This document shows positions 41,602 to 51,439 of a stretch of DNA of 64,000 nucleotides, piece after piece. The notes below the pieces were generated by a model, which was not told the DNA's origin, did not search any database, and worked only from the letters and a program-made list of their open reading frames with translations. The stretch is from Actinopolyspora xinjiangensis. GTDB lineage: Bacteria; Actinomycetota; Actinomycetes; Mycobacteriales; Pseudonocardiaceae. The stretch spans positions 1 through 64,000 of the forward strand of contig NZ_FNJR01000016.1 in NCBI RefSeq assembly GCF_900104475.1, given 5' to 3'. Numbering within the stretch: the first letter of the stretch is position 1; every line of letters starts with the position of its first letter. Made by a program: the position numbers and the translations under genes.

Positions 41602-43173
41602 TCACAGCGGCATCGTGCCGTGCTTCTTCGGCGGGGACTCCTCCCGTTTGGCCTCGAGCATCCGCAACGCCTCGACCAATCGTTCACGTGTCCGGGACGG
41701 TCTGATCACCGAATCCACGTAGCCGCGCTCGGCGGCCACGTAGGGGGTCGTCATGGTGGCGCGGTACTCCGCCACGAGTTTCGCCCGCACCGTGTCGCGG
41801 ACCCCGTTGGCTGCGGCCTCGGACAACTCGTCGCGGTGCAGCAGCTCGACCGCCCCCTCCGCGCCCATGACCGCTATCTCGGCGGTGGGCCAGGCCAGGT
41901 TGACGTCGGCGCCGAGGTGCTTGGACCCCATCACGGCGTACCCACCACCGTAGGCCTTCCTGGTCACCACGGTGACCTTGGGAACGGTGGCCTCCGAATA
42001 GGCGTAGATCAGCTTGGCGCCGCGTCTGATGACACCCCGCTGCTCCTGCTCCCTGCCGGGGAGGTAGCCGGGGACGTCGGCGAAGGTGAGCAGGGGGATG
42101 TTGAACGCGTCGCAGAACCGCACGAAACGCGCGGCCTTCTCGGAGGCGTCGATGTCGATTATCCCCGACTGCCACAGCGGCTGGTTGGCGACCACGCCCA
42201 CGCTGTACCCTCCCAGCCTGCCGAAACCGCACAGGATGTTGGGCGCGAACGCGGAGTGCACCTCCAGCAAATCTCCCTCGTCGAGCACGGCCGCGAGTAC
42301 CCGCCGCATGTCGTAGGACCGATTGGGGGAGTCGGGCACCACGGCGTCGAGGTCGGCGGCGGGAACGGTCGTCTCCGCTGCCGGGCACTCGGGCGGGGCG
42401 GTCAGGTTGTTGGGGGGCAGAAAAGTCAGCAGGGCGCGGACCCAGTCGAACGCGTCGGCCTCGTCCGAGGCGACGTAGTGGGCGTTGCCGGAGACGCTAC
42501 CGTTGACCTCCGCCCCGCCGAGCTCCTCGGCCGAGACGCTCTCCCCCGTCACGGAGCGGACCACGTCGGGGCCGGTGACGAACATGCGCGAGGTCCGGTC
42601 CACCATCACGGTGAAATCGGTCAGTGCGGGCGTGTAAACGGCGCCACCGGCGCATGGCCCCATGATCACCGATATCTGGGGCACCACGCCGGACGCCTTG
42701 GAGTTGCGTCTGCTCAGTTCCGCGTAGTAGGCGAGCGAGACTACCCCCTCCTGGATCCGCGCCCCACCGGAGTCGTTGATGCCGATGACGGGGCAGCCCG
42801 CTTTCATGGCCATGTCCATGATCCTGAGGACCTTCTCCCCGAAGACCTCTCCCATGCTTCCGCCGAAAGTGGTGAAGTCGTGCGAGAAGAGGCAGACCCG
42901 CCTGCCGTCCACCGTGGCGTACCCGGTCACCACGCCGTCGCCGTGGGGAGGGTTCCCCTCGGCGCCGAACGAGGCGCCGCGACGCAGCGCGAACTCGCCC
43001 ACCTCGACGAACGAACCCTCGTCCACCAGCATCCTGACGCGTTCCCGGGCGGTGTGCTTGCCCCTGGGATGCTGCTTGGCCGCCGCCGCCTCGTCGGTCT
43101 CGGAGACCGCTTCGGCGCGCCTGCGTTCCAGATCGTCGATACGTTCCGCCGTGCCGCGGGGTTCGTCGGCCAT
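41602..43173 (-). CDS. Acyl-CoA carboxylase beta (carboxyltransferase) subunit
   Basis: A 523-aa carboxyltransferase of the PccB/AccD group. It shows GKHTARERVRMLVDEGSFVE, SHDFTTFGGSMGEVFGEK, the N-half crotonase fold GGARIQEGVVSLAYYAEL and the acyl-CoA pocket GPCAGGAVYTPALTDF; the C-half has RRGAKLIYAYSEATVPKVTV and KAYGGGYAVMGSKHLGAD. With a biotinylated alpha subunit encoded elsewhere it carboxylates an acyl-CoA. It starts 6 nt after the PKS stop, in the position of accD4 in mycobacteria, so its likely job is to make the carboxyacyl-CoA extender for that PKS. Chain length cannot be read from the sequence. Confidence 0.88.
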   Translation of the reverse strand: MADEPRGTAERIDDLERRRAEAVSETDEAAAAKQHPRGKHTARERVRMLVDEGSFVEVGEFALRRGASFGAEGNPPHGDGVVTGYATVDGRRVCLFSHDFTTFGGSMGEVFGEKVLRIMDMAMKAGCPVIGINDSGGARIQEGVVSLAYYAELSRRNSKASGVVPQISVIMGPCAGGAVYTPALTDFTVMVDRTSRMFVTGPDVVRSVTGESVSAEELGGAEVNGSVSGNAHYVASDEADAFDWVRALLTFLPPNNLTAPPECPAAETTVPAADLDAVVPDSPNRSYDMRRVLAAVLDEGDLLEVHSAFAPNILCGFGRLGGYSVGVVANQPLWQSGIIDIDASEKAARFVRFCDAFNIPLLTFADVPGYLPGREQEQRGVIRRGAKLIYAYSEATVPKVTVVTRKAYGGGYAVMGSKHLGADVNLAWPTAEIAVMGAEGAVELLHRDELSEAAANGVRDTVRAKLVAEYRATMTTPYVAAERGYVDSVIRPSRTRERLVEALRMLEAKREESPPKKHGTMPL

Positions 43174-43179
43174 CGTGGA

Positions 43180-49100: not shown

Positions 49101-49677
49101 CCCCCGCGTGCTCCAGCGCTTCCCAGCTCACTTCGAGCAGCAGCCGCTGCTGCGGGTCCATGACCTCGGCCTCGCGCGGGGAGATCTCGAAGAACTCCGC
49201 GTCGAAGGCGGCGACATCGTCCAGGTACCCGCCGGAGGTGGGAAGCTCGTCCAACACGATCCCCTGCCCGGGGGCGAAGTCCCGCCAGCGCTCCGGAGGG
49301 ACCGTTCCGATGGCGTCGGTGCCGGAACACAACAGCTCCCAGAAGCGTTCCGGGCCGGTCGCTCCCGGGAATCGGCAGCCGAGGCCGATGACGGCGATCG
49401 GTTCACCGGGGTCGGGGCCGGGCGCGGTGGAGGTGCTGGACCCGGTTCCGGTGAGCGCCTCGGTCAACCGCTCGATCGTCGGGAACTCCCACAGCAGCGT
49501 GGTGGGAAGCGACCTGCCCAGCAGGGTTTCCAGTTCACCGGACAACTCCACGACGTCGCGAGAGGAGAGTCCGAACTCGTCGAACGGTCTGTCGGTTTCG
49601 ACGTGCGTGGGATTCAGGCCGGCGCGTTCGGCGATGCGGTGTATCAGCCACTCGCCGAGCTCCGAGTGCTCAGTCAT
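43180..49677 (-). CDS. Type I PKS: ACP-KS-AT-DH-KR-ACP-(inactive carrier)-TE
   Basis: A 2165-aa polyketide synthase. Domains in order: N-terminal ACP (Ser39 in FGLSSRDVV); KS from about 92 ([12 protein letters not shown]ys259, [24 protein letters not shown]); AT ([11 protein letters not shown], Ser704); DH ([14 protein letters not shown]is1002, [11 protein letters not shown]sp1166); KR (TGGLGGLG from Thr1458, Tyr1600 in [12 protein letters not shown]); ACP ([11 protein letters not shown], Ser1752); a second carrier-like domain whose motif reads LGGDEVLA, with Glu1848 where serine should be; and TE (GWSFGG, Ser1969; GDHLSM). No ER. The AT specificity motif is neither HAFH nor YASH. It overlaps the FAAL gene by 8 nt. 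The FAAL should load an acyl chain on the first ACP, to be extended once, reduced, perhaps dehydrated, and released by TE. Confidence 0.92.
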
Positions 49678-51439
49678 GTGTGTTCTCCGGTCCCAACTCG
49701 CCGTCCAGGTAGTACTGCCTGCAGGCGGAGCGCGCCACCTTGCCGCTCGAGGTCCTTGGAACGGTGTCCGGTTCGAGCAGCAACACCTCGTGCACCCGCA
49801 CGCCGTGCGCGGCGGCGATCTCGCCGCGCAGGGCAGCGCTGATTTCCGGGGAATCCCGTTGTTCGGGCGGCAGCGAGCGAGAGTACTCGGCGGCCACCAC
49901 CACTCGTTCGGTCTCGTCGACGGTGACGGCGAACACCGCCGTGTGGTGTTTGCGCACCGCTGGATGCAGCTCCACCGTCTGTTCGAGGTCCTGCGGGTAG
50001 TGGTTCCGACCGTCGAGGACGATCAGGTCCTTGATCCTTCCCGTCACGAACAGTTCGTCGTCGTAGCGCACGCCGAGGTCCCCGGTGCGCAGCCACCCCG
50101 TTTCCGGCAGTTCCCCGGAACCGCGCAGTCTGGCCCGGAAGGCCTCGGCCTCCTCCGAGCCTGTCCGGTTCCAGTAGCCCTGGCCGGTGTTGGGGCCGTG
50201 CACCCAGATCTCCCCCACGGTCGTGTCGGGGAGTCTGTGGTGCGACTCGGGGTCGACTATCGCTACCCGCTGCCCGAGCGGCCGACCGCAGGAGACCAGC
50301 GTGCTCGACATGGCGTTTCCCGCCGCGGCCACCGCGATGCCCTTCCCGAGGGAGTCCCGGTCGAACCGAACGCCGCGAGGCGGGGAACCGGCCGGGGTGG
50401 TGGAAACGAACACCGTCGCCTCCGCGAGCCCGAACGAGGAGCGGTGCGCCTCCGGACGCAGACCACAGGGTTCGAAGGCCCGGTTGAACCGCTCCACCGT
50501 CGACGGCAGCACCGGCTCGCTGCCGTTGATCATCGAGATCACTCGGTCCAACCTCGTGCGGGCCTTCTCGCGCTCGGTCACCCTGGCCGCGGTGTAGTCG
50601 AAGGCGAAGTTGGGGGCGGCCGTGATGCAGCGCGGGTTCGCCGAGAGCTGGTGCAACCAGCGCACCGGCCGCCGCAGGAACGCGGTGGGATCCATGAGCA
50701 CGGACCTGATTCCGCCCACCACGGGCGCCGCCACGGAGAGCACCAGCCCCATGTCGTGGAACAACGGCAACCAGCTGACGGTGGCGCCGCCCTCGACGCG
50801 GTCACCGAAGTAGGCGGACAGGGCTTGCCGAGCGTTGGCGACCACATTGGCGTGGGTGATCCGCACGCCGGCTGGTACCCGGGTGGAACCGGAAGTGTAC
50901 TGCAGGTAGGCGACGTCGTCAGCCGACACCGGGGCGGGAAGTCGCTCGGGGAGCCAGTCCCGCTGAGAGGCGTCGACCGCCAGGCATTCGGGTGGTGCAC
51001 CGCCGCCACGCCGCCCGGTCACCTCGCGGACTCGGTCGAGCACCTCCTCGGTGGTGAGCACACCCGCCGGTTCGCAGTCGTCGAGCACGGCTTCGAGCCT
51101 GCCCCGCTGACCGGGCATGTCGGGCTGGAACAGCGGGACGGCTATCGCCCCGGCCCGGATGGCTCCCAGGAAACCGACCACGTAGTCGATCCCCTGCGGA
51201 GCGAGGATCGCCACCCGCTCCCCCGGTCCGCAGTGGTGTGCGGTCCAGGACGCCACCGCACGGACCCGACGGTGCAGTTCGGCGACGGTCAGCGACCTGG
51301 CCAGGCCGTCCCCGCTCGCCTCGTAGTCGACGAAGGTGATCGCGGTGGCGTCCGGTCGCTCCCTCGCGGAGCGATCCAGGCACTCGGTCAGGCTCTGCCC
51401 ACCGCTCTGCGACGCGAACTCCGCGGTCGTTGATTCCAT
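49670..51439 (-). CDS. Fatty acyl-AMP ligase (FadD32-like)
   Basis: A 589-aa adenylate-forming enzyme. The AMP-binding P-loop is VAYLQYTSGSTRVPAGVRIT. VPLFQPDMPGQRGRL and ANPRCITAAPNFAFDYTAAR are typical of FAALs, including the insertion that stops CoA use. The C-terminal hinge is GWLRTGDLGVRYDDELFVTG, then RIKDLIVLDGRNHYPQDLE. It activates a fatty acid as acyl-AMP and passes it to an ACP, here most likely the N-terminal ACP of the next gene. The ATG at 51439 follows GGGAAGG; longer starts add a hydrophobic, unlikely leader. First gene of the operon; the promoter should be upstream of 51439. Confidence 0.9.
   Translation of the reverse strand: MESTTAEFASQSGGQSLTECLDRSARERPDATAITFVDYEASGDGLARSLTVAELHRRVRAVASWTAHHCGPGERVAILAPQGIDYVVGFLGAIRAGAIAVPLFQPDMPGQRGRLEAVLDDCEPAGVLTTEEVLDRVREVTGRRGGGAPPECLAVDASQRDWLPERLPAPVSADDVAYLQYTSGSTRVPAGVRITHANVVANARQALSAYFGDRVEGGATVSWLPLFHDMGLVLSVAAPVVGGIRSVLMDPTAFLRRPVRWLHQLSANPRCITAAPNFAFDYTAARVTEREKARTRLDRVISMINGSEPVLPSTVERFNRAFEPCGLRPEAHRSSFGLAEATVFVSTTPAGSPPRGVRFDRDSLGKGIAVAAAGNAMSSTLVSCGRPLGQRVAIVDPESHHRLPDTTVGEIWVHGPNTGQGYWNRTGSEEAEAFRARLRGSGELPETGWLRTGDLGVRYDDELFVTGRIKDLIVLDGRNHYPQDLEQTVELHPAVRKHHTAVFAVTVDETERVVVAAEYSRSLPPEQRDSPEISAALRGEIAAAHGVRVHEVLLLEPDTVPRTSSGKVARSACRQYYLDGELGPENTHD

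Follow-up and report, generated by a model that had tools for sequence, protein, structure and literature searches.

The window analyzed here, a stretch of 64,000 nucleotides from Actinopolyspora xinjiangensis (contig NZ_FNJR01000016.1), carries on its minus strand three adjacent genes, hereafter the trio, which encode a fatty acyl-AMP ligase (FAAL), a type I polyketide synthase (PKS), and an acyl-CoA carboxylase beta subunit (AccD). The trio is genuine and conserved; it is related to the locus for mycolate condensation, contains reductive domains of its own, and occurs in bacteria reported to be devoid of mycolates. The evidence lies in its genes and domains, in catalytic and specificity residues, in phylogeny, and in the linkage to, or co-occurrence with, a transferase gene. 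We consider, with a probability of roughly 0.6, that the PKS condenses lipid chains in the manner of Pks13 and carries out its own reduction of the beta carbon; the chain lengths, the single condensation round, the acceptor, and the export are what we infer.

The FAAL gene (P0003; 49670..51439), which matches the Pfam AMP-binding family, encodes an enzyme expected to charge the N-terminal acyl carrier protein (ACP) domain of the PKS with the first acyl chain. Its ATG start at 51439 corresponds to residue 26 of the longest open reading frame (ORF), which opens with a TTG at 51514. The gene overlaps by 8 nt (49670 to 49677) the PKS gene (43180..49677; 2165 aa), and a gap of 6 nt (43174 to 43179) separates the latter from the gene of the AccD (P0001; 41602..43173; 523 aa), which matches Pfam Carboxyl_trans and is of the AccD4 type according to its position in the tree and Ala413. 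Gene order, overlap, and gap are exactly those given in the preliminary description of the locus. Since a full-length PKS orthologue is encoded by 8 of the 10 Actinopolyspora genomes and same-order trios exist in other families, the arrangement is not due to chance.

Reading from its N terminus, the PKS comprises ACP1 (49453..49665), with Ser39 in a GLSSRD motif; a ketosynthase (KS; 48142..49404) with its motifs present; an acyltransferase (AT; 46885..47832); a dehydratase (DH; 45928..46767); a ketoreductase (KR; 44788..45318), with GGLGGLG and the Ser and Tyr residues; ACP2 (44317..44511), with Ser1752; a carrier-like ACP3 (44023..44250, ends approximate), where Glu1848 occupies the position of the phosphopantetheine-bearing Ser; and a thioesterase (TE; 43228..43968), with GWSFGG and GDH. 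All of them lie on the minus strand and were recognized by Pfam and motifs, with the aligned column as an additional criterion for ACP1, ACP2, and ACP3. The DH, matched by both PS-DH and PKS_DH_N, retains the catalytic His and Asp, and its motif departs from the usual HxxxGxxxxP at two accessory positions, while no match to an enoylreductase (ER) domain was found in the PKS by the Pfam scan. The N-terminal ACP, the DH, the KR, and the C-terminal TE first described were confirmed by Pfam; the description has to be amended in that two carrier domains precede the TE, the second of which has no Ser.

In order to place the trio among its relatives, we assigned the loci to five types: type A, the trio (FAAL, PKS with DH and KR, AccD); type B, a duo (FAAL and PKS with DH and KR, the stretch lacking an AccD); type C, FAAL and a PKS without DH and KR, again lacking an AccD in the stretch; type D, AccD-FAAL-PKS without DH and KR; and type E, with a KR only. 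The counts refer to chosen samples and are not frequencies. Among 40 chosen stretches (12.5 to 20 kb around PKS matches, including those of the genus), 17 were of type A, 16 of type B (one without TE), and 6 of type C, and 1 carried another PKS. A further 20 stretches from the same order yielded 6 Pks13 loci above the curated cutoff, 6 type A loci in two further families, 2 type C loci, and 6 other PKSs. In a search of 394 genomes belonging to the class, the AccD active-site motif was retrieved from 40, of which 28 fall in the mycobacterial family (f8). Of the 45 places bearing the motif, the 13 examined comprised 4 type A loci (from a family that lies outside the order), 5 type D loci, 2 cases of an AccD next to another KS-AT gene, and 2 Pks13 loci. 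FAAL-PKS-AccD in the same order, sought in other genera as the preliminary description had proposed, is present in many of them. Because the same trio occurs in Saccharopolyspora, beside which Actinopolyspora has been placed (PMC6113628), and in many other Pseudonocardiaceae, the role in high salt that had been suggested for the product gets no support.

The kinship with Pks13 was examined in KS-AT trees built from 104 rows (L130 and L132 left out as near copies), from 50 of those 104, and from 56 of 62, the six rows left out of the last being two trio, two duo, one N-terminal-ACP, and one other. In these trees, the rows of modular PKSs fall outside the family (100/100), the sister group consists of FAAL-linked mycobacterial PKSs without TE, and Pks13 lies inside a family of TE-bearing FAAL-PKS loci. 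In particular, the 56-row tree unites types A, C, D, and E, four type B rows, and Pks13 with a support of 99/97, and type A, Pks13, and those type B rows with 94/94. Constraining Pks13 to lie outside the rest of the family cost 42 log units and gave a p-AU (approximately unbiased test) of 0.0011 with 50 rows. Moreover, Pks13 was the top NCBIfam PKS model (1410.6 bits, with the next at 1238.6). On these sequence grounds, a close kinship between the trio PKS and Pks13 appears well supported, and a topology that nests Pks13 among the TE-bearing FAAL-PKS loci is favored, if not firmly. A loss of DH and KR en route to Pks13 would fit the presence of both domains in types A and B. A single such loss joining Pks13 with type C was not the best tree (AU p 0.144), but neither this nor a single loss that also takes in type D and type E, with its lone KR (p 0.213), was rejected.

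The residues of the active sites follow the same lines. The Ser residues of ACP1 and ACP2 are retained in all 54 rows aligned, and an ACP3 without Ser is present in 25/26 A, 14/14 B, 8/8 C, and 6/6 Pks13 rows (aligned column, with gaps in some rows). Of the 26 trio rows, 24 retain the catalytic His of the DH, and all retain the Tyr of the KR. In the AT, the specificity motif is YASH for methylmalonyl and HAFH for malonyl units; the window's PKS features GAGH (Gly805) in its place, which is common to Pks13. The motif GA[GSA]H occurs in 30/30 A rows (28 distinct loci, as L128 and L038 are the same locus, and so are L136 and L036), 8/8 Pks13, 5/5 D, and the single E row (L205), and the Gly is rare elsewhere (2/14 B, 0/8 C, 0/14 N-terminal-ACP PKSs without TE, and 0/36 other rows). 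In an earlier set of 54 rows, it was found in 32 of the 32 rows with an AccD and in 2 of the 22 without (Fisher 7e-13; the rows are related, and only 3 to 5 independent tree contrasts underlie this value).

Two departures from the common domain pattern bear on the product. L159 and L160, type A loci of one family, have lost the catalytic His of the DH and retained the KR, and the PKS of L205 (7800 to 13478; Nonomuraea gerenzanensis), whose KS-AT joins the Streptomyces-like type D (92/82), has a KR and no recognizable DH, with no FAAL or AccD recognized nearby in a record that is unannotated there. These enzymes would stop at 2-alkyl-3-hydroxy acids, i.e., the mycolic motif itself. Other variants reproduce the Pks13 layout. 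Five loci, probably from Streptomyces (L210, L212, L213, L214, and L215), carry AccD-FAAL-PKS(ACP-KS-AT-ACP-TE)-esterase, with the Ala in AccD and the Gly in AT, in a genus not known for mycolates; the family holding type D is probably Streptomycetaceae. In eight loci of Pseudonocardiaceae (L113, L116, L118, L121, L146, L150, L169, and L170), a FAAL gene accompanies a PKS of Pks13 architecture without DH and KR, with the AT motif VAGH, no AccD in the stretch, and a mycoloyltransferase-like gene near each; a separate origin of the Pks13 layout is possible for them.

As for the carboxylase, Ala413 of the window's AccD sits at the position of PccB Asp422, which we take to have a role in substrate choice. 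Ala occupies this position in 29/29 trio AccDs, 5/5 type D AccDs, 8/8 AccD4, and 2/2 lone AccDs. The 25 rows of paralogous AccDs present 8 Asp and 1 Cys (in the clade that we name PccB/AccD5 by inference), 11 Ile, and 2 other residues, and the remaining three, AccD4-like paralogues of one genome of family f8, have Ala, Ala, and Gly. In the AccD trees, from which the duplicate loci (L128/L038 and L136/L036) were left out, the trio AccDs and AccD4 form a joint clade (94/88 in the careful tree), and forcing the named set together while leaving out the two lone AccDs was not rejected (p 0.438). An assignment as a plain PccB, read from the PDB scores, was replaced on the evidence of the tree and the Ala position. 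The same Ala was observed in AccDs beside other KS-AT genes (L211, 6736 to 8904, and L216, 11073 to 13346), which may provide other pathways with alkylmalonyl extenders that are long or unusual. A different Streptomyces carboxylase is the subject of PMC13118682, whose main text contains neither "Pks13" nor "fatty acyl-AMP."

The top PDB matches of the window's FAAL were 5d6j and 5icr, labeled acyl-CoA synthase, followed by FadD32 (5ey9 and 5hm3).

A fourth component emerged from the clustering of the ORFs flanking 60 loci, in which one family, represented by a PF00756 esterase, lies beside 38 (duplicate loci are left out of this count and of those of transferase loci). With the family profile, the transferase gene was counted in 20/27 A, 12/14 B, 8/8 C, 5/5 D, and 5/8 Pks13 loci, the profile having been built from 48 sequences that include trio-linked genes and some motif-less ORFs, so that the counts are partly circular for those loci and not for the Pks13 loci. 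Among the 38 of 48 profile members that could be judged, the Ser was found in 36, the Glu in 35, the His in 38, and the full motif in 33. In all 20 type A loci with the transferase, the gene immediately follows accD in the same orientation, which indicates that the usual set is FAAL-PKS-AccD-transferase. The best PDB match of three such proteins (two locus linked, plus P0004 of the window's genome) was PS1 of C. glutamicum, followed by Cmt1, antigen 85, and some generic esterases; NCBIfam gave weak generic matches only.

P0004, on contig C8, is the one PF00756 match at an E value of 1e-5 or better in the window's genome. It matches PS1 at 1.9e-52, and its Ser203, Glu306, and His337, the last within a THSWPYW motif, align with residues of antigen 85, presumably the catalytic triad of that enzyme. 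By its PF00756 family, Ser-Glu-His residues, and HSWxYW-like motif, P0004 bears the marks of a mycoloyltransferase, and its N terminus shows, by eye, a hydrophobic stretch resembling a signal peptide. Within Actinopolyspora, the transferase is present in all 8 genomes with the PKS and in neither of the 2 without it (E 1e-20); one of these two has a PF00756 match at 7e-17, and the other has none. Furthermore, among 200 genomes of the family, the transferase was found in 65 of 70 PKS-positive genomes versus 17 of the 130 others at E 1e-50 or better, and in 66 of 70 versus 35 of 130 at E 1e-20, where PKS positive means among the matches listed, so that the negative set may hide positives, and where the genomes are related to one another.

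From these sequence features, the enzyme is likely to work like Pks13 with reduction added. FAALs hand fatty acids to ACP-bound phosphopantetheine and not to CoA (PMC8460268), and AccD4 carboxylates long acyl-CoA (PMC4347857). In the pathway that we propose, the FAAL would adenylate a long fatty acid and load it onto ACP1, from which the KS would take the chain over. Presumably together with an alpha subunit that bears biotin and is encoded elsewhere, the AccD4-type AccD would carboxylate a second long acyl-CoA to a 2-alkylmalonyl-CoA, and the AT, whose pocket is perhaps opened by Gly805, would put this extender on ACP2. The KS would then condense the two chains once, the KR would reduce the beta-keto group on the enzyme, and the DH would probably dehydrate the product, giving a 2-alkyl-3-hydroxy or 2-alkyl-2-enoyl acid. 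The TE would hand the alpha-branched product to an acceptor, and, after export, the secreted Ag85/PS1-like transferase (P0004) would move it to the final acceptor in the envelope. In the Pks13 system, two chains are condensed, the TE transfers the product to trehalose, and the ketone is reduced later by CmrA (PMC9900942).

Several observations weigh against this assignment. The same constraint placing Pks13 outside the family, when applied to 56 rows, cost 45 log units and gave a p-AU of 0.108. The PKS lies below the cutoff of the Pks13 equivalog model NF040607 (1410.6 versus 2100 bits), and the FAAL below that of the FadD32 model NF038339 (543.2 versus 975 bits); in the FAAL tree, the trio FAALs are united with FadD32 at a support of only 82. 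In the PDB search, mycocerosic acid synthase scored 947 bits versus 922 for Pks13, and for the AccD, S. coelicolor PccB (718 to 720 bits) came ahead of 9t97 chain D4a, which we took as AccD4 (520 bits). The AT Gly and the presence of AccD shift together on only 3 to 5 independent branches, and the Nonomuraea PKS of L205 has the Gly, yet no FAAL or AccD was recognized in its 21 kb. Moreover, the Actinopolyspora loci are among the 7 type A loci without a linked transferase, their copy being elsewhere in the genome. Finally, MMPL transporters were rejected as evidence of a further component in the window's genome, since trio-carrying members of the genus have 4 matches (that genome and one other) or 6 (six genomes), and the two members that lack the trio also have 4 each.

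With regard to MMPL genes in general, one adjoins 7 duo loci and only 1 trio locus. Contig C14 of the window's genome carries two (191768 to 193705 and 209358 to 211391), with a TAG in the match to the later one's second half; as judged by eye from coordinates and lengths, the later type is shared by 7 of the 8 trio-carrying members of the genus and missing from both members that lack the trio.

The first description of a mycolate-condensase-like locus nevertheless stands in its essentials, and none of the contrary outcomes examined was encountered: the KS-AT groups with Pks13 and not with ordinary modular PKSs, and the carboxylase, despite a raw PDB score nearer to PccB, groups with AccD4 in the tree and has its active-site Ala instead of being a plain propionyl-CoA carboxylase. 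The part that calls for restraint is the label, as the PKS and the FAAL remain below the curated NCBIfam cutoffs for Pks13 and FadD32. Even so, the trio is more Pks13-like than could be known when it was first described.

The same chemistry could instead serve a secreted specialized metabolite, i.e., a diffusible 2-alkyl lipid, glycolipid, or lipid ester, with the Ag85-like enzyme acylating a sugar or releasing the product. This would agree with the patchy spread of the system (8/10 Actinopolyspora genomes, and the AccD Ala motif in 40/394 genomes of the class), with the domain variants (DH and KR, KR only, or neither), and with the regulator gene nearby, a PucR-type gene (40150..41382, plus strand; Pfam) that is convergent to the trio and forms one of its borders, and that is a neighbor in 15 of 60 loci (13 trio and 2 duo). 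Against it speak the mycoloyltransferase-like gene linked or co-occurring across the family, the fact that the scan of flanking ORFs tied no tailoring or resistance gene to the trio, and the arabinogalactan, the usual mycolate acceptor, that is made by this group of organisms (PMC6194230). We regard such a metabolite as rather unlikely, although it is the strongest competitor of the condensase reading.

A lower likelihood still attaches to an iterative synthase of methyl-branched fatty acids of the Mas/Pks2 type, for which AccD would supply methylmalonyl-CoA and the PKS would extend the FAAL-loaded starter several times. The sister position of the FAAL-linked mycobacterial PKSs without TE, mycocerosic acid synthase as the top PDB match by total score, and the overall PccB-like sequence of AccD point in this direction. 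On the other side, no ER was found, Ala413 of AccD differs from the Asp of PccB, and the AT Gly805 has no counterpart in any of the 14 N-terminal-ACP PKSs without TE, both residues being as in AccD4 and Pks13; in addition, the C-terminal Ser-less ACP3 and the TE are features of Pks13. An ordinary macrolide or modular PKS cluster extending outside the window, which the type I PKS domains might recall, is hardly credible, since the next-best match within the genome has 34% identity and covers part of the protein only, the modular rows lie outside the family, and no PKS gene was found among the flanking ORFs scanned around the trio.

Moreover, no second PKS of the trio kind was found in the window's genome. 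The other border of the trio is a GNAT gene (52186..52746, minus strand; Pfam). Further upstream of the trio, a GT4-type glycosyltransferase gene, a methyltransferase gene, and an oligosaccharide-amylase-like gene (53650 to 56714, minus strand) were noticed, for which no link to the trio was found. Elsewhere in the window (31057 to 34000), a tRNA-Pro is followed by a stretch of low G+C content (0.515 at 32001 to 34000, versus 0.64 to 0.73 in most of the window), possibly an integrated element.

Returning to the condensase of the Pks13 kind, it is tempting to join all its elements in a broader picture, which we put forward tentatively and with less than even confidence. Actinopolyspora, many other Pseudonocardiaceae, and probably some Streptomyces would carry a hidden mycolate-like layer or lipid, for which an AccD4/Pks13-type enzyme, here with KR and DH, would make 2-alkyl-3-hydroxy or 2-alkyl-2-enoic acids, to be attached by an Ag85/PS1-type transferase to trehalose, arabinogalactan, or surface proteins. 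Pks13 would have arisen by loss of DH and KR from such a reducing synthase, and the mycolic machinery would be older than the mycomembrane. If this were true, the enoic acids would escape the standard tests for mycolates.

In the literature, mycolic acids are described as exclusive to Corynebacteriales and Ag85 genes as present only in mycolate-positive species, some Actinopolysporales and Pseudonocardiales are reported to make arabinogalactan but to lack mycolic acids, and the origin of the envelope is called a mystery (PMC6194230); the fadD32-pks13-accD4 locus is likewise stated to be exclusive to mycolate producers (PMC9900942). Our result conflicts with both statements of exclusivity only if near relatives are counted, because the cutoffs of true Pks13 and FadD32 are not reached. 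No earlier report of the trio outside mycolate producers was found in the parts seen of the open-licence literature, a body that does not include subscription papers. A condensase, an AccD4-type carboxylase, a FAAL, and a mycoloyltransferase-like enzyme occurring together in groups that make arabinogalactan and no mycolates are candidate intermediates for the origin of the waxy coat, and the trio set offers natural variants of Pks13, AccD4, and Ag85 for the study of those enzymes.

Compared with known systems, the trio shares with the FAAL-linked mycobacterial PKSs without TE, which we take to be PpsA-like, the FAAL beside a PKS with an N-terminal ACP and a sister position in the KS-AT trees, but those enzymes have no TE and carry VASH or VAPH as the AT motif. 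P0004 resembles the antigen 85, PS1, and Cmt1 mycoloyltransferases in its residues and THSWPYW motif, whereas its host is reported to be without mycolates. The closest likeness is with fadD32-pks13-accD4 of Mycobacteriaceae and Corynebacterium, with which the trio has in common the order FAAL-PKS-AccD, the ACP-KS-AT...ACP2-ACP3-TE succession with a Ser-less ACP3, described as of unknown function in the Pks13 cryo-EM preprint (PMC9900942), the Gly in AT, the Ala in AccD, and the mycoloyltransferase-like gene, found in 5 of the 8 such loci examined. Besides scoring below the curated cutoffs and residing in hosts reported to lack mycolic acids (PMC6194230), the trio differs from that locus in the DH and KR inserted between AT and ACP2, whereas Pks13 is ACP-KS-AT-ACP-TE without reductive domains.

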